DNA of 64,000 nucleotides, taken from NCBI GenBank assembly GCA_019044685.2, contig JAGTXX020000005.1, positions 744,001-808,000 on the forward strand, read 5' to 3'. This DNA is from Nannochloris sp. 'desiccata'. Lineage: Eukaryota > Chlorophyta > Trebouxiophyceae > Chlorellales > Chlorellaceae. Under the pieces are notes generated by a model that did no database searches, was not told where the DNA came from, and worked only from the letters and a program-made list of their open reading frames with translations. Positions 31,090-47,044 of this stretch are shown here, one piece after another. The position numbers and the translations under genes were made by a program. Position 1 is the first letter of the stretch. The number at the start of each line of letters is the position of its first letter.

Positions 31090-34000
31090 TTATTCATAAG
31101 AAGAGACGACCCAATGAGATCTAGTACTATCAGGGTGCAAAAAGGGGTGGTTGAGGGGAACCACCTGTAACCAAGCAGGCGGTAAGACACCAAGAGAAGC
31201 AATTTCAGTAAGGCCAGACCAGAATTCAGCCAAGACAACTTGACTGACTGAAGCTATCATTGCAGGTCCAGGAGCCATAGGAGGACGGTGGATAGAGCCA
31301 GTAGTACGAGAGGAGCGAGCACGACCTCTACCGCCGCCTCTGCGACGAGCAGCTGAAACAGTAGCATGCTGAAGTTTAAGAACCCGGTCAAACCAATTCT
31401 TGCGCCCTGATTCGCAGGCAGCAAGTAATTTGATTGCTACAATGTCCCAAATACCTTGATGAAGCCTAGGGTGTGGCCTAATACCCATCCAAATATGACG
31501 GCGCTGCAGTAACCCAGGTGTTGGAATAGAAAAGTCATCACACAATTGCTGTTGCACCGCGAGCCATGTTGGCTGTACAATAGCACACTGGTGATAGAGA
31601 TGGATACGGGTAGGTCCAATTGCAAGTCCGCAGCCACACTGGCGTGACTGTAGAAGAGGGAGGCTGTCAGCAGTAGGAATGCCATTAAGAACCAACCGCC
31701 AAAGCACTTCAAGGCTGCGGCCATCACAGGGGCGAGACCACATTCTGGAGAGCAGGCGTTGTACAGCACCTGGAGAAGGCTCAGTAGTGGGAGATACCAG
31801 TACCGAGAAGGAGCTCATAGGTGCTACCTGAGGAGCGGGGCGACTAGCAAGTTGGAGGATAGTGCCAACTTTCACTTGGAAAGATGCCAAGTTAATAGTG
31901 CGGCGGCCAATCCTCCATCCCATGCAAGAAATCAGCATTTCGGCAGCAGCAGCAGATGTAGAAGATGCTTCAGCAATAGCAGCAGCTGTTGTGGATGCAC
32001 CAGCCATCTCTACAGTGGAGCCGTCGTATAAAACAACTGGCGGCGTAACAGTAGTGATGGGCTGGAGAGGGGTGCCCTGAGCAGCTTCCAGCCATCCTTC
32101 AGGAAGAAGAGTACACACATGGTGTATTGCTACATCGACGTATAACTTGAGATCAGAAAGAGAGCGAGTAGTAGCAGCTACATGTGGAGAAATGGGAGAG
32201 AGGATGCCATGTTGGCCAGGGAATTTCAGAAACTGCCTTCGCTGCTCATATTGACCAGGAGCCCAAGTCTCCAGATCCAATCTTAGGCGCAGCAAATCTC
32301 CGAAAGTAATAATAGCAGGGCAGGCAATAGTCCCAAGATTAGGGCATCGTTGGCTGTGCTCCAAGGCGACGGCTCCGTTATCCAACAACAAAGGGTTACT
32401 CCAGAGAGGGAGAGCAGCACACCAAGGACCAGCTGGCACTGGAGCAACGATTGAAGGACGCGGTAAAGCTCTGAGCGCAGAGCACAATCTCTCAAGAACA
32501 ACAGGAACCTCTGCGACACCTAGATGAGCAGCGAGGCTAGTGGCAGGGCGAGTCAACAGGACCAGCTGAGGACATGGGAAAGGCACAGCGACACCATATT
32601 GTCCAGGATCGCTTTTGACTGTGGATAGAAGGTGCGAGAGAACAGATCGAGCTACGCGTATCCATGGTGTAGTGGCAGAACCAGTAATCAGGCGCAAGGC
32701 CCACCAAGCTATTCTAGAGTTGACGTGCTCAGGCAACGGAAGCAGTCCAAGACCACCAAAGCGAGGGTGAGCAGGCATCAGAGCTCTGGAGATTCCTGAA
32801 AACCTTCTTTGGCTGGGACCCGATGAGGTAGAGATCCATGGGGGTAGCCGGAGGCAGATATCGCGATCTACAGCTGCAGGAAGCAGCCGCTCAAGGTAGT
32901 GGAGGTCACGACCCTCAGGCAACCCAGTGAATTGAGCAAAGTATAAAATCTTGGAAAGGGCATAGCTATTGATAGCAAATGCTCTGCCAAAGGAAGAGAG
33001 TTTGCATTTAACAATCATATCCACTTTAGAGTGCACTCGCGTTAGCAACTCCACCCAGTCCACCGAGATCGCTCCCGTGAATTGAGAGAATGTCAAGCCC
33101 AACGCTGTGACAGAAGAGACTACTGGCAAACCGTGAATAGACTCAGGTAGAGGCTGCTCTGGAGGAGTGCCTAGGAAGAGAAGACGTGTCTTGGCAGGCT
33201 GCAAGTGCTGGCCAGAGGCTTGGGCAAAAATGGTCATAGCATCGAGGAAGGCAGGGATGTCTTCAGGGCCATTCAGCAACACTTTGGTGTCATCAGCGTG
33301 TTGTAATGCAGTAAGAGTCTCATCATCAATCTCGACACCAAAGCCTTTCTCTCTCAGCCACATCAAAGCTGCTTGAGCAACTAGGAGGTAGAGCGGCGGA
33401 GAGAGCGGACAGCCCTGTCTGGCTCCAGCGAGAAGAAGACGATAATCAGAGAGATAGCCATCAATAATGGCAGCAGAGCGAGTGTCAGTAAGCAATAGCT
33501 TCATCCACGAAACAAAATCTTCACCAAGTCCCATTTTGAGGGCTAAAGCAGACAAGAAGTTGCGATCGAGGGTGTCGTATGCTTTGCGGAAATCACAAAA
33601 GACCATGAGAGCAGAGCGATGATGCTGCTGGAGCCAAGCGGGCAGGAACTGCATTAGCATAGCCGTATCTCCTATGTGCCGCCCTCTTAAGAACGCCGTT
33701 TGCACCGGATCGATGATTGTCGGGAGGACGGCACCGAGGCGGGAGCCCAAAGCGCGAGTGAGGACGCGATAATCAGTACCAGTCAGGGAAATAGGGCGAG
33801 TATTTGCAATTAATAGACTATTTCCTGGTTTAGGAATAGAGGTAATGACACTTTTAAGGAAAGAACGGGGCGCTGAGCCGGACTTACCTATGGCGGTGAA
33901 CACGCGTGAAAAAAGTGGGGCAAAACCCCGCCTAAAAGTCTTGTACAGCTTCATAGGGATACCATCTGGACCAGAAGCCGTATGAGGGCTGCATTTACGT

Positions 34001-34222
34001 AGCGTACTCAGAATTTCAGCTTCAGTAACATCAGACGAGCCTAGTTGTTGCACTGTCTGGGGTTGTAGCTGAGGCACTCCTTGAGCCTCAACAGCAGCTA
34101 GAACGGCAGTTTGAGCAGCCGCTGTGGTAGTAGGAGCAGCAGAGATACCAGCCCAGTAATCAATGACTACATTAGCACAACGAGCAGCAGAAGTTTGGAG
34201 AGTACCAGAGCTATCAAGCAGA
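31090..34222 (-). CDS. LINE ORF2, reverse transcriptase part
   Basis: C-terminal two-thirds of ORF2. Reverse transcriptase blocks in order: SGPDGIPMKLYK, NTRPISLTGTDYRVL, TAFLRGRHIGDTAM, FCDFRKAYDTLDR, GARQGCPLSPPLYLL and the catalytic ALQHADDTKVLL (HADD in place of the common YADD/FADD). A CCHC-like cysteine-histidine motif (CGCGLAIGPTRIHLYHQC) is near the C-terminus, as in R1/I/Jockey-group LINEs. No clear RNase H domain is seen. The frame is open to the insertion point at 34222. Confidence 0.92.
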
Positions 34223-34227
34223 GCAGG
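34223..34227. repeat. Target-site duplication GCAGG (left)
   Basis: Five bases directly before the left LTR, repeated after the right LTR at 40725..40729. Confidence 0.9.
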
Positions 34228-34586
34228 TGTAGAACTATGCCTAACTGGGTGGAAGGCTAAGTTCTTAGGAACAAGATGTTCGATCGAATGCGCACAGTGG
34301 AGTCACAACTACACTGTCTTAGAGGTCTATAGGGTATCTAGGAGTATCAGGTGTACCTGGTTACACGAATCAAGAGTTAATCATAATTAAGAATGTGGAA
34401 AAGAGCGATGGAGAGCTATTTAGGAATTGAGTATGTAGCTTCTCAAGCTATAACGTTATAGGGCACGCAGCCATAACGAGAGTGACTGTGTCAGACTGAG
34501 TCTGGCAGAGAATAGCTGTCCAGAGCGACGGAAGAAAGAAAAGAGACCAAAATAGAAAAAGGCAAAATAAGGCGCAAAGTGCTACA
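34228..34586 (-). repeat. 3' LTR
   Basis: 359-base long terminal repeat, TG...CA ends, same sequence as 40366..40724 by eye. Confidence 0.95.
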
Positions 34587-34756
34587 TTATCCCCTCCTTA
34601 AGAAAAGAGCCACGTCCTCGCTGGCTCAGAACAATGTAAGCAGACAAAGGAATCAAGGGGAAAGCAAAACAAAAGACAATCAGCAAAATGAAAATATAAA
34701 TAGACAGATCTGAAAATTTCTTAACCAGGGGGAAAAAAATCACATAGACAATAAAA

Positions 34757-37700
34757 TTACTTCTTTTTAGTAGGTTCCTTGATATTCTTCTTCTTTTTAG
34801 AATTAACAGTAGGCCAAGGTGGTAGCGTAGCTTCTCCACGTCTGAGTGGGTGTGCAGCATCATATTCATCAATTAAATCTTTAATGCCGAGTAGTTGGCG
34901 GCGGGGTTCCCAAGTAGCTTCTTCAAGAGAGTAACCAAGCCAAGCTACATGATAAAACCATTCAGGGCGAGATTTACCAACAATAGTATCCCATTTACGA
35001 CCAAATACATAATCGACAAGGTAGATTCCATCACCACGTGCATAACCAATCGGTGGCAGTTCCACAGTAACGCGTTCACCAAATTCTTCAGGAGACTCTA
35101 CAAAGGGATGTAAGAGTTTGACATGGAAGGTAGCATGAATTTGCATCTCATTAGGGAGTGTAAGTTTATACGTAACGGGAGACAGCACTTTAGATATCGT
35201 GAAGGGACCAATACGTCTTTCTTGCAGCTTGCGAGAAGGACCGGGCAGCTTCAAATTTTCTGTAGACAGGTAAACACGATCTCCAACTTTAAACTCAACA
35301 TGCCTTCTAGATTTATTTGCATATTCACGCTGACGTTCACGAGCACGCTCCAAATGTTGTTTAGCTTCAGTTAAAGCAGTAGCGACAGTGTGAGCCAAGG
35401 TATCAGGATTGACAGCAGCAGCAGAAGTAGGATTGAGAGCAGCACCAGGGACAAAAGGATGAGTACCATGATTCAAGAAGTACGGAGTAAACTTATGCGA
35501 AGCTTGACGAGAATTATTATAAGCCAATTCCAGATAAGGTAACAATTCATCCCAGTTATCATGCTTATCGTTGACGTAAGAGCGGAGCATCTCTTCAATG
35601 GTTCTATTCATTCGCTCAGTCTGGCCATCAGTTTCGGGGTGGAAAGCAGTAGACATGTGAGAAGCAATACCTAAAGCATCAATAAATTGTTTCCAATACT
35701 CACTGGTGAAGCGAGCATCGCGATCACTTATCAAGGCTTTTGGGAAACCATGGAGCCTAAAGATATTACTCATCATGAGCTTAGCAAGACTAGGAGCATC
35801 AACAGTGGTAGTGGTAGCAATGAAATGACCCATTTTAGAAAGCTTATCAACTACAGTAACAATGCAGTCAAAACCATTGAGAGTGGTAGGCAAAGGACCA
35901 ATCAAATCCAATGAGACATGTTCCCAATTATGATCAGGAACCGGCAGCGGTTGCAACAAGCCAGCAGGCTTTTGGTTGTTCGATTTCATTCGCTGACAAA
36001 GAAGGCAAGATTTCACATAACGTTGTACAGTTTGTGCAATTCCACGCCAGTAGTAATGTCGAGAAACCAGTTCAGTAGTTTTATCCATGCCCACGTGACC
36101 AGCAGTCACATGATCGTGATTTGCAGCTAAAACTTTAGCTTGCAACTTCTTGAATGGAACGAACAATTTCTTTCTTCCCTTCGAGTGAGCATAAATTAAA
36201 TCATTTTGAACTGAGTATTCAAAATCCAAGACAGATGGAGGAGGAGCAAGAGAGCGGCGACGACGACGGTTACTAACGGGAGCGGGAGCGACAACTTTCT
36301 TGTACAAAGGATCTTTAACCAAAGCATCCTTCAATTCAGCTAACCAACCTTGGTTAGGTTCAAAATGTACAATAGAATTCACACGAACACTATTAACACG
36401 AATACCTTGCACACGAAGCAGCTGTGGCAGCACAGTGTCAGACACAGGGGGCAGTTCAAAATCAGCGCGTCGACTCAAAGCATCAGCTACAACATTAGCT
36501 TTACCAGGGAGATACTTGATGAGCAAGTCATTACCGTACTCTAATAGAGTTTCAAGCCATCGTACTTGTCTCTTAGACAGTTCTTTTTGTTCCATGAAGT
36601 ACTTCAAGGAATTATGATCAGTAAGAACAGTGATCGGCACGCCTTCGACATAGTGTCGCCAGCGTTTGAGAGCACAGACAATAGCATGAAGTTCGCGATC
36701 ATGAGTAGGCCAACGACGTTCAGTATCACTCAGAGTTTGAGAAATGAAGGCAACAGGACGTTCACCTTCAGGCGTAGATTGACTAAGCACAGCACCAACA
36801 GCGAACTCAGAAGCGTCCGTAGTAATCACAAAAGGCTTGCCAAATTCAGGGTTTTTCAACACAGGAGCGGTGGACAAGGCAGTCTTCAAGGCTTCTAACG
36901 CTTGAGTTTGCTTGGTAGTCCAGAGAAAAGGGACATTCTTCTTAGTAAGCAAGGTAAGAGGGGCAGCCATGGTGGCGAAACCATGAACATAGCGACGGTA
37001 ATAATTAGCTAGACCGAGAAAAGAGCGGACTTGCCGGACTGTTTTAGGTTGAGGCCAGTCAGCAACAGCTTGAACTTTACGAGGGTCAGCTTTAACACCA
37101 TCACCATTAATCACATGCCCAAGGAAGGACACTTCAGTTTGGAAAAATTCACACTTAGAGGCCTTGCAATACAGCTTATTCTGTCGGAGGACGTCAAGCG
37201 CGTGGCGAACGTGCTTTTCATGATCCTCAAGAGTATCACTAAAGATAAGGATATCATCTAAGTATACCATAATGAATTTGTCCAAACTAGTGCGGAAGAT
37301 GTCATTCATCAAGGTCTGGAAGGTGGCGGGAGCGTTCGTCAGACCGAATGGCATCACTAAAAACTCATAGTGACCATATCTGGTACTAAATGCAGTCTTG
37401 TAGATATCTTCTTTAGCTACTCGTATTTGATAATAGCCGGATCTCAGATCAAGCTTGGTAAAGTACTTGGCCTTACCAAGGCGATCCAACATTTCTTCAA
37501 TACGAGGGAGCGGATACCTATTCTTCACAGTCTGTTTGTTCAGGGCTCTGTAGTCAATACACATACGTAAGGAGCCATCTTGCTTCTTGACAAACAGCAC
37601 AGGAGATCCATAGGGAGACACACTAGGCTGTATCTCACCATTTTCCAACATTTCGTTGATCTGTCGCTGCATTTCATCGTATTCAGGCAGACTCTTTTTA

Positions 37701-38511
37701 TAGTCTGGGCGGGAAGTGGGTTGAGCACCAGGTTCAAGTTCAATACGATGATCTACAGATCGTTCAGGAGGCAGACCAGGAGGCAAGTTATCAGGGAAAA
37801 CATCTTCATAATCTTTCATAATATCCTTCGCCATCTTTCGAGCGCCCGCGGCGGTGGTTTCTTTAACTTCACTTTCGACACCGTCATCAGTTTGCCGTAC
37901 ATAGCAAGCATATACTTTAGCAGAGGGGCGCTTACGAAGAACTCTATTGAGTTGTACAGCACTCAAGGGCTTCAATGTAGTGGGTCGGTCTGGTCGCGGA
38001 CATTGCCAAAAGTGGCGACGACGGCGGTGAGTAAAAGTTATTGTTTTCTCGGAGAAATCAATACTAGGATTAATTTTACTCAGCCATGGTTGTCCTAATA
38101 TCATATGATAAGCCGAATCTAAAGGCACTACATCCAGAGATACCGAATCTCTGTAATTCTGGATTTTAATCGTGGCACGGTGAACAAACTTGTCCAAATC
38201 ATAAGCGGTACCATCAGCCATCAGGGCTTGAGTCCAGTTCTGAGGATCTTTCTTTTTCGTAGTAATTCCAAATGTTTCAACAAAGTCTTGAGAAATAAAA
38301 TTACCAGCAGCACCACTATCTATAAGGATAGTGACGACCTGGCCATTGACACTTCCACGGAGGACCTGCAGCTCAGTCTCGGAGCGCACTGCGAGAATAT
38401 ATCGAGGGTCGCAGGCGGGAGCTGGGCCCGAATCAAGGGTGGAGGAGTCATCAACATCATCATCAACAGATTCACCGGCAATAAAGACTCCGCTTACTGT
38501 CGGTGTCTCGC
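34757..38511 (-). CDS. pol: Ty3/gypsy pol (protease-RT-RNase H-integrase-chromodomain)
   Basis: About 1,250 aa once entered by -1 frameshift from gag; the conserved part starts near 38389. Protease active site [10 protein letters not shown]. Reverse transcriptase: [20 protein letters not shown], catalytic [10 protein letters not shown]. RNase [15 protein letters not shown] and TDHNSLKYF. Integrase zinc finger: [17 protein letters not shown] followed by CLLCQ, then the DDE core with [19 protein letters not shown] and the [12 protein letters not shown] block. The C-terminus is a chromodomain (VDYVFGRKW...[17 protein letters not shown]), which defines chromoviruses and is thought to direct insertion to particular chromatin. 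No stop codons interrupt it. Confidence 0.95.
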
Positions 38512-39381
38512 GTTTCCCTGCTTCTTAGTAAGCTCGGGACACTGATTTTTACGATGACCACGTTCTTTGCAGTAGAAACAACGACCTTCACGACGCAAGG
38601 CGTCACGATCATAAGAACCAGAGGGACGAGAATCAATACTACCTATATCCATAGCCACAGGACGCGGAGCAGGAGCAAGAGAAGCCGGCTGGCGGGACTG
38701 CCAGTGTTGGCCAGAGTAATTGCCTCTGCCACGTTGTCCAGCAGGTACCAATTCTAATTCACCAAGAGTAGCCAAAGTAGCAATCTCGTCAAATTGAAGA
38801 GTTGTACGAACCCTATTGGCCGTAGCTTGGGTAATATAATCCTTAACCTTGTCCCAGTACAAGGTTTTCCGGAAGCGATGCACAATTTCATCCTGAGTGA
38901 CTTCAGGCAATTCAAGCATAATAATACGGTACTCTCTAATGTAATCAATCACAGATTGAGTACGCCTCTGACGTAAGTTGTCAAGGCGTTCCCGTGCTTG
39001 AAGATGTTCCTCTAAGGGACCAAAAGCACCACGCAAAGCCGTACAAAAATCTTGCCAAGTCCCCCAAGGAGCGTTAGCCCATTCATCAACAGGGTAGACA
39101 CGACGCAACCAAGTCTTGGCAGCACCTTGAAGGTAGGGCAAGGCAGTTTGCACCTTCAGCATATCATCAGTAATACCAATAGAATGACAGTACAAGGATA
39201 CAGCGTACAACCAATCTTGCAAAGCTTTACTATCACCGGTAAAGTCATTGGGCTTGCGGGGCTTGATACGCTGTGCAGCAGGTGGTTGTTGCACGTTTGG
39301 TGGTTGTTGCTGTAACTCATTGAGTTGAGCAGTCAAGAACTGTACTTGCTGCATCAACTGAGCAGCTTCTTCGGCGTTCAT
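38494..39381 (-). CDS. gag: Ty3/gypsy gag (capsid and nucleocapsid)
   Basis: 295 aa with a capsid-like helical region ([47 protein letters not shown], characteristic of retrotransposon gag) and one CCHC zinc knuckle near the C-terminus ([15 protein letters not shown]). The frame ends at 38494, just after a slippery heptamer at 38518..38512 that allows -1 shift into pol. Confidence 0.93.
38512..38518 (-). promoter_or_regulatory. -1 ribosomal frameshift site GGGAAAC
   Basis: Read on the minus strand, the gag frame is CAG GGA AAC, giving the heptamer G-GGA-AAC in the exact X-XXY-YYZ phase. It lies five codons before the gag stop, and the pol frame is open across it in the -1 frame. I could not test for a downstream pseudoknot. 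Confidence 0.8.
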
Positions 39382-39405
39382 CTTGTCGTACGAGCAATAC
39401 GAATT

Positions 39406-39867
39406 TCAATTAAAATATATAACCCTGCCGTCGGGAAGAACCTTTAATTTATTTTCTTCTTCCCAAAGGGACCACCGTGCTTCGTCAACACGTCTAGGAT
39501 TCCAGTACTTTAAGAAGCTTTGTTCTTCTTCACGTGCTTGAGAACAAGCTGTACTAGTTAGTACCCACTTGTACTTACTAGGGTTCTTGAGATCAGCTGG
39601 AATGCCGTCTAGTGGCACTTGTTTCAATCCCCCTATGTAAGTAAACTTCCCGTAAGTACCTTTAACTTTAGCCTCTACGTTAGCTTTCGCGTCAAGGTAC
39701 TTCTTCAGTTGTGAACTTCTTTTACTCTTGTTGTATTGCCACGTAGTACGCTTACGAGTATCAGCAATGACCTTCTTCTTCTTCTTCTGTTTGAACTTCT
39801 CTTTACGCTTCTCTTTCTTTACCTCTTTAACCAAGTCTTGATGTACTAGTGTAGTACTAGATGCCAT
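39406..39867 (-). CDS. Extra ORF upstream of gag, unknown
   Basis: 153 aa from ATG 39867, lying between the 5' leader and gag of the LTR element, and 24 bases from the gag start. The N-terminus is very basic (KEVKKEKRKEKFKQKKKKKV), then a more ordinary stretch (KGTYGKFTYIGGLKQVPLDG, KYKWVLTSTACSQ, RWSLWEEENKLKVLPDGRVI). I recognise no family. Most Ty3/gypsy elements have no ORF here. The lysine-rich start could serve nuclear entry or RNA binding (inference). Confidence 0.6.
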   Translation of the reverse strand: MASSTTLVHQDLVKEVKKEKRKEKFKQKKKKKVIADTRKRTTWQYNKSKRSSQLKKYLDAKANVEAKVKGTYGKFTYIGGLKQVPLDGIPADLKNPSKYKWVLTSTACSQAREEEQSFLKYWNPRRVDEARWSLWEEENKLKVLPDGRVIYFN

Positions 39868-40365
39868 ACACTATAGTACAGTGGAATAGGACTAATACCG
39901 GACCACTTGAAGTACTAAATGACTAATACCTAGATCAGCCGTGGACAGTACAGTACTTCTCGCTGATAGCAGCTACCTCGGTAGTCACGGATGAGGATTC
40001 AGTACTGTGGTGGTGGATGCTTCACTAGATCTTAATCAGATAATATCTTCAGAGATACCTGGACCAAGATATCAGGAACCGGGGTCAAGAGCCGCCAAAG
40101 AAAAATTTCAGAAACGCGTACGCCGGGGGTGTGTCGACTCGCCAAGTCTCAAAAACACACCTGTGAGAAGCCTATGAGCGGACTTTCGCCAAAGTCAAGC
40201 TTATATAGGGCTATCAAACAGATCAAAAGGCCACGCAGAGGAGTGGGGCCCAAAATCAAGAGGTCGAAGAACGCGGGATGCGAATCAGATGAGGTGCACG
40301 CTCACTTGCCAAGTGAGAATCAGAAGGTGCAACTTACGTATCCCGTTTCAAAAGCTGAGAACCAA
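39868..40365 (-). other. 5' leader of the LTR element
   Basis: About 500 bases between the 5' LTR and the first ORF. The half nearest that ORF is unusually rich in GTAC/AGTAC words (for example around 39840-40010). A role in packaging or transcription is possible but unsupported. Confidence 0.6.
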
Positions 40366-40724
40366 TGTAGAACTATGCCTAACTGGGTGGAAGGCTAAGT
40401 TCTTAGGAACAAGATGTTCGATCGAATGCGCACAGTGGAGTCACAACTACACTGTCTTAGAGGTCTATAGGGTATCTAGGAGTATCAGGTGTACCTGGTT
40501 ACACGAATCAAGAGTTAATCATAATTAAGAATGTGGAAAAGAGCGATGGAGAGCTATTTAGGAATTGAGTATGTAGCTTCTCAAGCTATAACGTTATAGG
40601 GCACGCAGCCATAACGAGAGTGACTGTGTCAGACTGAGTCTGGCAGAGAATAGCTGTCCAGAGCGACGGAAGAAAGAAAAGAGACCAAAATAGAAAAAGG
40701 CAAAATAAGGCGCAAAGTGCTACA
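40366..40724 (-). repeat. 5' LTR
   Basis: 359-base long terminal repeat starting the element on the minus strand; same sequence as 34228..34586 by eye. Confidence 0.95.
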
Positions 40725-40729
40725 GCAGG
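40725..40729. repeat. Target-site duplication GCAGG (right)
   Basis: Matches 34223..34227. Five bases is the usual length for Ty3/gypsy integrases. Confidence 0.9.
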
Positions 40730-42154
40730 GATATTGACGTGTCTGCTTGCGCCAAGGATTTTAGTAAGACCGATCGAGGGGCGTTCTTTGGAATGAATCC
40801 AAGCTTTACGAGTTTTAGTCTGGTAAAAAGCTTCTAATTCCCTCTCAAGACGACCCAGTTCAGCCCTGACATGCGGAATTTCAGCGAGAGCAGCTCGGAT
40901 AGAGACGGTGTCGTTCCCATTAACTTGGGAAGTGAGCGTTGCTAATGTATCACGAAGCGCCTCCACAGATGCACGATGTTGGTTTTTGAAGAAGAAATCG
41001 CGATTCAAACTCCTGATTTTCCACTTCAATGTTTTAGACTTGAATTTAAGCCACCAGCGTTTTACTGCCTCGTCAGTAGTAGGGAGACTTGCTAGCCTCA
41101 AGTCCAGCCACTCTTCAAACTCTCGTGAAAGACAAGGATCTTTCATAAAAGAGATATTAAGACGAGGAGGTGCGTTAGGAGGGCGAGAAGAAGAAGCGGA
41201 AGAGTGTTCAAGGGACAGCGGCGCCAAGTGACAGACCACAACGGTGTGATCAGAATCATTAACACAACGACGCAGAGCTGATCTGAGAAGGTTAGAAGGG
41301 CAGACAACTTGAGTAGAAAGAGTGTCGGAGGTGTAAAAGCGGTCCAATCGAGAACCACAGTGACCATTAGGTTGGAGCCAGGTCATGTGGCGGGACGTCG
41401 GGTGCTGTAACCGAAACACGTCAACCAGAGTAGCCAAAGCTGGGAGAGCAGCCCAAACATTTGCAGTAGCCTCAGTAGTGGCAGTCGGCACCATAGCTTC
41501 ACCTCCAACAGTAGTTAATCTATCTAAAGACGGATTGTGGACAAAGTTGAAATCACCTCCCCACACCAGCTGCCGCCTAGCAGCCACAGCAGAGGCAGCA
41601 AGGGGTACAAGGCGGTCCTGAAGAAACTGAGCACGCTCAGGGGCATGATTTGGGAGATAAAGACAAGCCATAGATAGTTTATGACCCGCCCAATCAATAT
41701 TGAGGGAAATAACACGCCCATCCTCGGGGCCGACACTGGCAGCGTCACCCACGAGGCGAACGGTGCCATCTCTGATAAGGGATGTTCTAATAGCTATGGC
41801 AACGCCTCCTCTGCTGCGACCAGCAGAAATAGTAGAATCATCCAGCTCCTCAGAGGGGGTAGCAGTTGAAGAAGATGCAGTAGAGGCAGAAATTGATGTA
41901 GTTTTGTAGCGCCAAAACACAGTCCAGCCACGGCCGTGCGGGCGGCGAGAAAATTTATTTGCAAAAGGTACAGAGTGGACCACAGAGGGGATCCAATGTT
42001 CTTGTATAAATACGATTCCTAAATGTAATTCATCCCACATTTGAGTAAAACGGGGAATGTTGTCAAGAGTCAAGCCTCGGACATTGTGGGTACCAAACCG
42101 TAAAGTAGGGCATCGAGCAACATCACCAGGCAGCAAGAGGGCATTTAGGGGCAT
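40725..42154 (-). CDS. LINE ORF2, endonuclease part
   Basis: N-terminal third of ORF2, continuous in frame with 34222..31090 before the insertion. It carries an APE-like endonuclease: GTHNVRGL, IVFIQEHW (catalytic Glu), SRGGVAIAI, VWGGDFNFV, GSRLDRFYTS and SDHTVVVCHL (catalytic Asp-His). The endonuclease nicks target DNA for target-primed reverse transcription. Its ATG at 42154 is two bases after the ORF1 stop. Open frame continues past the insertion into the LTR as an artefact. Confidence 0.92.
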
Positions 42155-42156
42155 AT

Positions 42157-43707
42157 TTAATGTTGAGAAGGAGGAGCACCTCCATTTGTTTCTCCATCAG
42201 CAGGGGCAGGGGGTGAGTGGATTGGAGGGTCTTCCAAGTCAAAATCTTCAGCAGCAAGACTGACGCCAGACATGGAGTCATCGTCGTTTGAGGTGAGATC
42301 CGAGTCTTCAGCCATAGGATCATAGTCTTCATCGTCGTCCGTACCATCTTCAGATCCAGTTGTGGCAGCAGCCTCAGAGGATGTGGCTGCAGTAGGAGCT
42401 GCCCGGGCCTGACGATCGGGATTAATGCGAAGAGGTGGGAGATCAAGAGCACCACTAGGGGCTGCAGCAGCATCAATAGTAGCAGCACCAGCCATACCAG
42501 CAAAGGTGCCAGCAAGAATTCCATGGACACCCGGGGTGACAATAGTGGTTCCAGCAACATGTCCAGCAGCTGGTTCAGTAGCAGAATGAATTGCAGCTGA
42601 TTTGGCAGCGGCAGCCACAGTGGAAAGAGGAGAAGAGCGTGTGCGTACTTGTCCAGAGGGGCCGGCTCCATTGGCAGAGGTGACACCAGCAGCCGCAGCA
42701 GCAGCAGCAGCAGCAAGTGCTTTCGCTTCAGCCGCTTCCTTAGCAGCCTTGGCAATAGCAGCAGATTCTGCCTCTCGTTCGCGTTTCTTAGCAGCATGTT
42801 CAGCCAATTTTTGTAAGGCCGCTTGGCGCTTGGTTTCCACCGCGGCCTCTTGGGCAGAGACTTGCACTCTTTTCGAGCGTTTGGCGGTAGAAGGGCCAGG
42901 TGGCTGGGCGGCTCGAGCGGCAGCAGGAGCGCTCCTGCTAGCAGGGGGCTGGGAGACAGGAGAAGTAGATGAAGGTCGACGAGGGACGTTCCAGGCAGAC
43001 GAGACAACAAGAGGGGGAGTAAGAGTCAACAAGTCTTGGTCAATGGCATCAGCAGTCCAAGTAGCGGAAGGCATACGGACGTGGATAAGGTGAGTTTTAC
43101 CTGCAAGACCAGGGAGCTGGAAGTCTGTGGGAATATCAGCAAGAGAGGAAGCTTTAAATTTGACAATAAGGCGGCCCTCTTGGGAGCTGTTGCTGGGACC
43201 AGAAATTTGCCGGACAATTGTGCAACGGCGACGGTCAGTTGAGAGGAAAGAAGCCAGATCAGCCTGATTAATATTGGCAGGCACGTTGATCAGTTCACGG
43301 GTATATTCTGCAGAATAGTTTTCCCAGGAGACACGCGCATCAACAAAAGTGATGCCACCTTCAACTTCAGCAGGCAAAGGCAGGGTGCCCGTGGCGGCAG
43401 TGGCAGCTTCGAGGCTGGGGACGGCCGCAGGGTGCTTGATAGTAAAACCCACACGCATATAGCCATCAACAGTGGTGTAAGAAGCATGCTCTGTGAGGTA
43501 TTCACTCGGTTGCAAGGGGGCATCCGAGGGAATATGGGCGTGAATTGCCTTGGCGACAGCACGGGTAAAAAGAGCCCGTTGGTGCTGAGGCTCGAGCGCA
43601 TAGCGAGCCTTAGCAGAGACCCGCAAAATTGGGTGGGAGTCCAAGTCCACGTCTTGGTAAAGACCGGGAGGAGGGTCCGTAAGGATGACAAGACGGCGGG
43701 GAGGCAT
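42157..43707 (-). CDS. LINE ORF1 (gag-like)
   Basis: 516 aa from ATG 43707. The N-terminal half looks globular (YALEPQHQRALFTRAVAKAI, RLIVKFKASSLADIP), followed by a long Ala-rich, charged, coiled-coil-like part (AEHAAKKREREAESAAIAKA) and an acidic C-terminus (EDGTDDDEDYDPMAEDSD). I see no zinc knuckle. Its role by position is RNA binding and chaperoning. The stop is followed by AT then the ORF2 ATG (TAAATATG), suggesting ORF2 translation by termination-reinitiation. Confidence 0.82.
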   Translation of the reverse strand: MPPRRLVILTDPPPGLYQDVDLDSHPILRVSAKARYALEPQHQRALFTRAVAKAIHAHIPSDAPLQPSEYLTEHASYTTVDGYMRVGFTIKHPAAVPSLEAATAATGTLPLPAEVEGGITFVDARVSWENYSAEYTRELINVPANINQADLASFLSTDRRRCTIVRQISGPSNSSQEGRLIVKFKASSLADIPTDFQLPGLAGKTHLIHVRMPSATWTADAIDQDLLTLTPPLVVSSAWNVPRRPSSTSPVSQPPASRSAPAAARAAQPPGPSTAKRSKRVQVSAQEAAVETKRQAALQKLAEHAAKKREREAESAAIAKAAKEAAEAKALAAAAAAAAAGVTSANGAGPSGQVRTRSSPLSTVAAAAKSAAIHSATEPAAGHVAGTTIVTPGVHGILAGTFAGMAGAATIDAAAAPSGALDLPPLRINPDRQARAAPTAATSSEAAATTGSEDGTDDDEDYDPMAEDSDLTSNDDDSMSGVSLAAEDFDLEDPPIHSPPAPADGETNGGAPPSQH

Positions 43708-44007
43708 AATTAAGAAAAAATGCAGTCTCGGGGGGACAGTAAATTTTGAACAGAGTGAAATTGTTCAAACCCCAGCAAGCACCTGAAGATAACCACTCAG
43801 GAGAAGTCAAGCGCTATTTCTAGAGCAATATTGAGTGCGGAGCACTGTAATTGCGCGTAAATTTTTATTTTTTTAATTTTTCACTGATGTTAGATGCGAA
43901 AAAAATCAAAAAGCAGCAGGTGCTCTTTGATCCCCTCCAGAAAGTACTATAGTGTTCTAACAGCTCTACTGTGTTACAGAATTGATTTTTAGTTTTTTTT
44001 GAAATTT
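43708..44007. other. LINE 5' UTR and junction
   Basis: About 300 bases upstream of ORF1 on the minus strand. It probably includes the LINE 5' UTR; the exact element boundary is not visible. No gene. Confidence 0.5.
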
Positions 44008-45151: not shown

Positions 45152-46275
45152 GATTGAGGATCTTACATGTGGCCCAGTCCCACCGCCCTGGTGAGAGAGT
45201 CAGGTGACTCGCAGGCTTCCCTATAACATGGGAATGTATAAAGAGTAGAAAAAAGACAAGAGTCTAGAATTGAGGTTAGCCAACCCAAAAACATAAGCAT
45301 GGGGCGGTGAATATGCAAAACGCCACCAACCACCATACCTGGCGGTAATGAGCAAAAGGCAAAAACCCTAGATTTTAACTCAAGAAAGGTGATAGATAAC
45401 CAGAGATACTTTGATTACCCATCAATACAACATAAAAAATGTTGAGCAAAGAATGAATTCTTCACTGGAAAGGATCCAGATCCATTTTTCAGGGTCTGAA
45501 TGAAAAGAGCGGCGTTTCAGAAACGCCACTGGGAGGTATGATAAGAAGCACCATACAAAAAGAGGGGTTTTATTGGTGATAAATCAGTCAAGTAAAACCA
45601 GGTCGTGCAGAAATCTCTGCGCGAGTATTGAAAGAGTAGAGAAAAAGCTGCCCACCACCAATCCACGGCATATGACGGTGAATATGCAAAACGCCACCAA
45701 CCACATGCAAGGGAATGATGTTGGACCTCTCATCACTACTCAGTTGAGGAACGAGGTTTCCCTGCGTTGTTTTGCTGAGATAGCTTAATCAATAAAAGAT
45801 TATTGATGGTAGAAATCCTGCCTCCCAGTGGGTGGCAGCATCGGGGCTCGATGGCAAGCACCCGAATATGGGGGTTAAAAAGTCAGCGTGATGGAGTCCA
45901 GCGGACCCGGGGGCTGAAGAAGCTCGAATATAGAGGTGAGTTATGAGGCTCTCCATCTATCTTCGATCTGTGAAACAACGTGCAGAGGTTGATTTCTGAA
46001 GTGTTTAAATTGCCGGTTAGTTGAGAAAATAAATCCTCAAATACCGCATTATTAGAGACCGCGTGGCCTCAGATAGCTCCAATATAATTAGAGCTATAAT
46101 ATACATCCCCCCGCTGACGGCGAAAGCACGCAACGGGAGAGTTTTAGTTTGTCGATCAAAGAATGCTAACGAAAAAAATATTTTTTTCGCTGAACACCTT
46201 TGATATATAATCCCAGCACTTTGAGAGGGAGCCAATTAACAAAAGGAGTTACTTGGTTCCCTCTCAAAATAGCTG
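45152..46275 (-). mobile_element. LINE 3' remnant, tandem unit B
   Basis: Near-copy of unit A, directly abutting it. Small differences include extra or missing single bases (for example gggggttaaaa/ggggttaaaa) and point changes. Tandem duplication of an already decayed LINE fragment is the simplest reading. It ends 140 bases before the permuted tRNA gene. Confidence 0.8.
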
Positions 46276-46417
46276 AAATCGATTAATATGCCGTTTTTGA
46301 CGTTTCCGTACGATATGTACTGCACGAAATCAGCTTTTGGCGCTTTTCGCCTCGGAATGACGATAACGGCTGGGCCAGACCGCTCAGGAATAATCGCTGC
46401 CGGAGGTGCCCTACGCG

Positions 46418-46497
46418 AGCTGGAAGTCGTGGGTTCGAATCCCTCTAGGAGCAATAGTAGCTCCTATAACTCAGTAGGTTAGAGTGCTAGTCTTATG
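46418..46497 (+). tRNA. Circularly permuted tRNA-Ile (anticodon UAU)
   Basis: The 3' half comes first: A38 and anticodon-stem strand GCTGG (46418..46423), variable loop AAGTC, T-stem GTGGG, T-loop TTCGAAT, CCCTC, acceptor strand TAGGAGC (46446..46452) and discriminator A. After a 6-base spacer (ATAGTA) comes the 5' half: acceptor strand GCTCCTA (46460..46466), D-arm ACTC-AGTAGGTTA-GAGT, G26, anticodon-stem CTAGT and CTTATG with anticodon TAT (46494..46496). All seven acceptor pairs and four D-stem pairs match. The anticodon stem forms with two G-U pairs, and the T-stem has one T-T mismatch. A pol III T5 terminator follows at 46502. The B box therefore precedes the A box. No CCA is encoded. 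Precursor circularisation by the tRNA splicing machinery is known for such genes; the flanks TGCG and CGCG can pair near the join. Confidence 0.85.
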
Positions 46498-46501
46498 CGA
46501 C

Positions 46502-46506
46502 TTTTT
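46502..46506 (+). terminator. Pol III T-run terminator
   Basis: Five T residues four bases after the 5' half of the permuted tRNA. Confidence 0.75.
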
Positions 46507-47044
46507 GCCACTCAAATCCTTCGAAAAGACCAAGAAGCGTTGGATGACATTTTCAAATTTCAATTCCGACAACATTGGCACCCAATCTCGGGCATAACTT
46601 AGAATTTCCCGCTTCCCCTAGTTCCTCAACTGTGTGTTTCCAGGCGCTTTCTTTTTGAATTGCCACACTCATACTGCAAAACTCATACGATGGATATGAC
46701 TGGAAGGGGCAAAGGTGAAGACAGCGTCGGCACCAGGGCTCTTTTTTTGTACTATCAAAAGACTTTAGGGTTTAGGGTCTGTTAGTGTCATCCTCCAAGG
46801 CGGAAGCAAATTTTGGAGGTTACAAAGTAGCATGGAGTGGAAGTAAGTCTACACATATCCCAACGGTGCATTGAAATCGTGGAGAAATCGTTTGCTTTCT
46901 ATCAACTAGCATGCAGCTGTCGATCATTTACACCTTTTGGGCGGCGTAAGAAATCGGCGGTCTATTATGTTTTTACAGATATACTATTGATTATTAGTAT
47001 CAGGAGACCAATAAATTTACCAGGTTGTTCAATGCGGAATTATT
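46507..47044. other. Intergenic; contains TTTAGGG-like pair
   Basis: About 540 bases with no supported gene. Near 46765 is ctttagggtttagggtc, two units of the plant-type telomere repeat, which is also the telo-box (AAACCCTAA) on the other strand. Confidence 0.5.

Follow-up and report, generated by a model that had tools for sequence, protein, structure and literature searches.

A tRNA-Ile(UAU) gene with swapped halves, one of at least 29 permuted tRNA genes found in the green alga Nannochloris sp. 'desiccata'

RESULTS

The halves of a tRNA-Ile(UAU) lie in swapped order

The window analyzed here is the whole 64,000-nucleotide stretch C5:744001-808000 of the 21.55-Mb assembly of Nannochloris sp. 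'desiccata' (18 contigs); its GC content ranges from 0.40 to 0.52 per 2-kb step. At positions 46418 to 46506 of the window, the 3′ half of a tRNA precedes its 5′ half on the forward strand, with the following features:

46398..46417, + strand: leader of the tRNA-Ile(UAU) gene (part shown), the last bases of which resemble the 3′ end of a tRNA intron
46418..46453, + strand: 3′ half, positions 38 to 73 (sequence and structure scan), with the T arm at 46428-46444, the acceptor strand at 46446-46452, and A73 at 46453
46454..46459, + strand: intervening sequence atagta, 6 nt, separating the mature tRNA ends (sequence and structure scan)
46460..46497, + strand: 5′ half, positions 1 to 37 (sequence, scan, and half-match coordinates from the genome search)
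46494-46496, + strand: anticodon TAT, followed by G37 at 46497
46502..46506, + strand: T5 run, the presumed RNA polymerase III terminator

Read directly, the 3′ half comprises, in order, A38, GCTGG, AAGTC, GTGGG-TTCGAAT-CCCTC, TAGGAGC, and A73. The 5′ half comprises GCTCCTA, T8 and A9, ACTC-AGTAGGTTA-GAGT, G26, CTAGT, and CTTATG, and four bases separate it from the T5 run. A T run is thus present downstream of the 5′ half and absent from the spacer. When the halves are joined at 46497/46418, the join proposed by an earlier sequence-only reading of this DNA, the junction falls between tRNA positions 37 and 38 and a cloverleaf with the anticodon UAU results. Its acceptor stem is fully Watson-Crick paired (7/7), the D-stem has 4/4 pairs, the anticodon stem has 5/5 (two being G-U), and the T-stem has 4/5, the exception being a T50-T64 mismatch; 19 of the 20 counted stem pairs are formed. 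The seven acceptor pairs, the perfect D-stem, the T-loop TTCGAAT, the T5 run, the six-base spacer, and the single T-T mismatch in the T-stem had all been described in that reading, and each was seen in its place. The canonical tRNA marks U8, A14, G18G19, U33, and T54T55C56 are also kept.

Position 37 is a G, a feature that the sequence-only reading did not mention. As a general rule, tRNAs that read codons starting with A carry A37 with t6A, and A37 is present in all 10 other permuted U36 tRNAs found in this genome. Because G37 replaces A37, the amino acid of the tRNA is assigned from the anticodon alone.

We also observed an RWP-RK gene and, elsewhere in the window, a LINE-like element (31090-43764) with two minus-strand ORFs, one for the reverse transcriptase (31090-34302) and one for the endonuclease (40586-42196). 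A Ty3/gypsy-type element (34757-39405) that has gag and a chromodomain pol apparently splits this element in two. Closer to the tRNA gene, a long inverted repeat (GAGAGGGAGCCAATTA ... TTGGTTCCCTCTC) lies upstream at 46200-46290 and gives a weak mir-133 match (19.8 bits versus 55.5). Two tandem TTTAGGG telomere-type units are located at 46764-46777, ~260 bases past the gene and ~32 kb from the contig end.

The swapped-order locus is unique in the window and exceeds chance expectation

ARAGORN detected no normal-order tRNA anywhere in the 64-kb window, including at this site, where the sequence-only reading had named a complete overlapping tRNA as the conflicting layout. There were likewise no Rfam matches in the window at gathering cutoffs. 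A strict structure scan found this single place in the window and gave 0 hits in 30 Markov shuffles of it. A relaxed scan of 600 shuffled windows gave 89 hits, of which the best scored 23.0 and four scored ≥21.5; none reached the score of the tRNA-Ile(UAU) gene (23.5). When the joined tRNA was used as a genome query, it matched only its own two halves; by DNA similarity, therefore, neither the normal-order tRNA-Ile(UAU) that the sequence-only reading had suggested looking for nor a second copy in any other order was found. Remnants of the outer halves of ordinary tRNA copies were not found within 2 kb, since the best ungapped matches (20/38 upstream and 20/36 downstream) do not exceed the highest values seen in shuffles (23 and 21, respectively). 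Single-sequence folding gave z values of −0.60 for the permuted core (0.03 when flanks were included) and −1.38 for the mature sequence, the minimum-energy fold of which is not the cloverleaf; in silico folding is uninformative as proof of a permuted gene. We conclude that the swapped-order tRNA-Ile(UAU) at 46418-46506 is real.

The genome carries at least 29 distinct permuted tRNA genes

To place the locus in its genomic context, an inventory of permuted genes was made by searching the genome with short B-box patterns and in two family searches, followed by the structure scan. At least 29 distinct permuted tRNA genes were found, all read with a 37/38 junction and together covering 16 amino acids, alongside 10 distinct normal-order genes at 11 loci (ARAGORN), six of them intron bearing. 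Permuted genes thus make up 29 of the 39 distinct tRNA genes found in an inventory that is incomplete. The genes, by amino acid and anticodon, are as follows:

Permuted: Ala AGC, CGC, TGC; Arg ACG, CCG, CCT, TCG, TCT; Asn GTT; Cys GCA; Glu CTC; Gly GCC, TCC; Ile AAT, TAT; Leu AAG, CAA, TAA; Lys CTT; Met CAT; Phe GAA; Ser AGA, GCT; Thr AGT, CGT, TGT; Trp CCA; Tyr GTA; Val CAC
Loci of the 28 permuted genes other than Ile(UAU): L012-L017, L020, L022, L023, L033, L039, L041, L049, L051, L053, L057-L059, L072, L073, L079, L089, L100, L115, L145, L159, L189, L231
Normal order: Val TAC; Gln CTG; Met CAT; Ser GCT (two identical loci); His GTG; Pro TGG; Ser TGA; Asp GTC; L011 (Pro CGG or Ser CGA); Pro AGG

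The spacers of the other 28 permuted genes range from 5 to 73 nt. The six-base spacer of tRNA-Ile(UAU), which the sequence-only reading had singled out as very short, is indeed short but not unusual here, since 11 of the 29 genes have spacers of ≤8 nt. A T4 run starts ≤12 nt past the 5′ half in 25/29 genes and ≤20 nt past it in 28/29, compared with 9.4% of random places at ≤12 nt. No clear common promoter motif was found in the 100 bases upstream of the 29 genes, where the A+T content is 0.68 and 0.67 at −70 to −51 and 0.53 to 0.64 elsewhere. Nine mismatches occur among the 580 counted stem pairs of this class, and T-T is the commonest, accounting for six of the nine in six genes: Trp, Ala(UGC), Thr(CGU), Thr(UGU), Cys (on one reading of its 3′ half start), and Ile(UAU). 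These T-T mismatches fall at 29-41, 51-63, 6-67, and 50-64 (L013, L017, L041, L100, L189, and, in the window, 46429 with 46443). In the Cys gene, a 5-nt variable loop was substituted for the 12-nt loop of the scan, which moves the 3′ half start and creates the mismatch. In the permuted tRNA-Val(CAC) (L049:1520-1622), position 33 is C; all 28 other permuted genes have T there.

The B-box search used six exact patterns and yielded 228 places, five of which were left unread as repeat copies; the family searches contributed 63 scored candidates of 825 and 46 of 427. The B-box places include 29/29 permuted genes and 9/10 normal-order genes, and the patterns favor neither gene order. Many of these places were read with 150 bases on either side, a margin that longer introns or spacers escape, and the places read contained no gene in either order for some expected anticodons, e.g., Lys UUU, Glu UUC, and Gln UUG. 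An independent D-arm pattern occurred at 60 places, of which 6 lie inside known permuted genes, 8 others were read and held no tRNA, and 46 remained unread.

A covariance model was built from six permuted genes with spacers of 6 to 8 nt, Ile(UAU) among them. In their stems, 97.6% of cells are paired versus 64.9 when shuffled, and changes on both sides occur in 41 cells versus 12.4. The model was applied to 211 of 235 loci (98, 98, and 15), so its E values refer to three search sizes. Of the permuted genes outside model building, 22/23 were recovered at an E value of 6.4e-9 or better; the remaining gene, Arg(CCG), has a 73-nt spacer and an E value of 0.0015. The best normal-order gene reached 2e-4 in this model. 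Because the 4 shuffle hits at ≥21.5 per 600 windows correspond to ~2 expected by chance in a genome of 21.55 Mb, the lowest scorers of the 29 depend also on the model score and the T run.

Several candidates were excluded from the 29: a Leu-like gene whose 5′ half is damaged (L077/L078, 32 bits), a variant third Trp copy (L043, 39.6 bits), and L137 (15.2 bits, E value of 0.0012). The Leu-like gene (L077:1488-1566 and L078) retains a 3′ half and the start of a 5′ half but ends in an improper anticodon arm, and appears to be decaying or split further. Among the ARAGORN calls, the wrap-around calls and three intron-bearing ones were discarded as artifacts (Thr, 107 nt, overlapping the 3′ half of the permuted Trp gene; Val, 523 nt; SeC, 1386 nt). 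L011, called Pro(CGG), was reread by hand as an intron-containing Ser(CGA) gene and counts as one normal-order gene either way. The two normal-order Ser(GCT) loci, which look organelle-like, were still counted.

A dispersed repeat was also observed in L018, L023, L028, and L047. It starts with GTCCTGGTGATGAC, contains the B-box-like sequence GGTTCGAGTCC, and has no Rfam match at an E value of 0.1; two of its four copies share 3-kb loci with the permuted Cys and Phe tRNA genes.

Leaders of the permuted genes resemble tRNA introns

The exact register in which an intron pairs with the anticodon loop is 32:−3, 33:−4, 34:−5, and 35:−6. Where the eukaryotic splicing endonuclease removes an intron, the anticodon loop forms base pairs with the part of the intron close to the 3′ splice site (PMC3978253). 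The leader of the tRNA-Ile(UAU) gene forms three of the four pairs in this register, with G(−3) opposite C32, A(−5) opposite T34, and T(−6) opposite A35, while C(−4) and T33 are unpaired. These three of four helix pairs give the 37/38 junction a flanking bulge-helix-bulge of the relaxed type.

Pairing of base 32 with leader base −3 is seen in 21 of the 29 permuted genes, whereas the other seven offsets tested give 1 to 12; when leaders were reassigned among genes, the count of 21 was matched in 1 of 10,000 trials. The 34:−5 pair is present in 22/29 genes, a count reached by 2 of 10,000 reassignments. The signal is weak at 35:−6 (15/29; 408 of 10,000 reassignments) and absent at 33:−4 (19/29 versus a reassignment mean of 18.5). 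Over the whole four-pair helix, the 29 genes form 77 of 116 pairs, compared with a shuffle mean of 56.6 and 0 of 10,000 trials reaching this value, and the result is also 0 without Ile(UAU). The complementarity holds gene by gene: each leader is thus matched to the anticodon of the gene that carries it, the pattern expected of an intron. The genome also contains two genes that carry a tRNA-intron endonuclease domain.

DISCUSSION

A working tRNA-Ile(UAU) gene is the best explanation

The layout, the junction, the T run, the leader complementarity, and the class of 29 in the genome all support the identification of the locus as a circularly permuted tRNA-Ile(UAU) gene, as first proposed in the sequence-only reading. 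Judged from the sequence, it is most likely a working nuclear gene of type II (37/38 junction), present in a single copy. RNA polymerase III would produce one short transcript comprising the leader, the 3′ half, the 6-nt spacer, the 5′ half, and the T run, the ends of which would pair as the ends of a tRNA intron do. The leader complementarity and published algal work suggest that the splicing endonuclease would cut behind G37 and ahead of A38 and that a ligase would close the circle. The spacer would then be removed by RNase P and tRNase Z, followed by CCA addition, and the product would be expected to read the codon AUA. The gene is probably functional: the acceptor and D stems, the T run, and the intron-like leader are intact, no second copy was found, and AUA is used in the window, where it makes up 84 of the 437 Ile codons of 17 stop-to-stop ORFs. 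G37 and the one T-stem mismatch speak against function; the minimum-energy fold of the mature tRNA and the lack of a clear upstream promoter motif also count against this explanation.

The sequence-only reading had left room for a decaying copy, a possibility that our results weaken but that G37 keeps alive. Under this alternative, the locus was formerly a tRNA-Ile(UAU) gene and is now drifting, the decoding of AUA having passed to tRNA-Ile(AAU), which would carry inosine at 34. Such a tRNA could read AUA via inosine, and a permuted tRNA-Ile(AAU) gene exists in the genome (L145); G37, seen in none of the other 10 permuted U36 tRNAs found, and the T50-T64 mismatch also point in this direction. 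The mismatch is less telling, however, because six of the nine stem mismatches in permuted genes are T-T, and five of the 29 genes other than Ile(UAU) carry one, Cys on one reading. Perfect acceptor and D stems, an intact T run and intron-like leader, the use of AUA, and the lack of a second tRNA-Ile(UAU) copy by DNA similarity likewise speak against decay, which we regard as unlikely.

It is far less probable that the product of the locus is a tRNA-like noncoding RNA, for instance a YrlA-type Y RNA, whose swapped-order module does not become a joined tRNA. YrlA (RF02553) shares the swapped tRNA-like module and is the best lax-threshold Rfam match at the site (28.9 bits, E value of 6e-4), and at least five other permuted genes also give weak matches to it. 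However, every match is far below the Rfam cutoff of 69 bits, and we rejected this identity for the site; weak matches to YrlA also occur in 13 of 14 control genomes. Moreover, the anticodon arm here is complete, unlike that of YrlA, and the anticodons vary between genes together with matching leaders. For any lone locus, three further sources must be weighed: a chance match, an error of assembly, and a pair of neighboring ordinary copies seen by their inner halves, tandem origin being one published scenario (PMC3978253). All three are highly improbable here given that 0/600 shuffled windows match the score, that outer halves are untraceable within 2 kb, and that the same layout recurs in 29 distinct genes with differing spacers.

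Implications of a largely permuted tRNA gene set

The working permuted tRNA-Ile(UAU) gene favored here would add to a known kind; the surprise is the proportion of permuted genes, far above that of Cyanidioschyzon. We consider the permuted form to be probably the usual form of nuclear tRNA genes in this green alga. If so, transcription of the permuted genes would be independent of the usual order of A box before B box, and much of the tRNA supply would pass through RNA circles. With at least 29 such genes, the alga would offer a good test bed for RNA polymerase III acting on inverted internal promoter boxes and would serve the further questions of a protective or regulatory role of circles for tRNAs and of the spread of permutation. 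Permuted genes also escape a standard tRNA finder, as the blank ARAGORN result for the window illustrates. tRNA-Ile(UAU) poses a question of its own, namely, the reading of AUA by a tRNA with G37.

Comparison with known permuted tRNA genes

Permuted tRNA genes had been rare finds: a 2014 review lists 34 from seven species, with at most 11 per genome and spacers of 1 to 74 nt, and Ile(UAU) is absent from its table (PMC3978253). The sequence-only reading placed such genes in Cyanidioschyzon and some prasinophytes; this is correct, but the reported range is already wider, including chlorarachniophyte nucleomorphs, Thermofilum (PMC3978253), and Auxenochlorella (PMC12636532). In a body of literature represented mostly by titles and abstracts, with the Nannochloris genome paper outside it, we recognized no report of permuted tRNA genes in Nannochloris or Picochlorum.

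The closest counterparts are the type II genes of Ostreococcus, Micromonas, and chlorarachniophyte nucleomorphs, which belong to the green-algal line and share the leading 3′ half, the short spacer, the 37/38 junction, and the T run (Maruyama et al. 2010, as cited in PMC3978253; PMC4494063). Their numbers are lower: the green-algal genomes listed in the review have 3 to 6 permuted genes each and no Ile(UAU) (PMC3978253), versus the 29 found in Nannochloris, and two of four chlorarachniophyte nucleomorphs have two permuted Ser genes while the other two have none (PMC4494063). In Auxenochlorella, a trebouxiophyte compared here from the text description, searching for normal tRNA genes left the set incomplete, and permuted ones then came to light (PMC12636532). 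Cyanidioschyzon merolae, in which the RNA circle has been demonstrated by experiment, is alike in that many of its tRNA genes are broken up by permutation or introns (PMC3978253), although its tRNA-Ile(UAU) gene has three introns instead of a permutation (PMC9602550). In that alga, 11 of 43 tRNA genes are permuted, and four different junction positions occur among them (Soma et al. 2007, as cited in PMC3978253), whereas in Nannochloris 29 of the 39 distinct tRNA genes found are permuted, all at 37/38.
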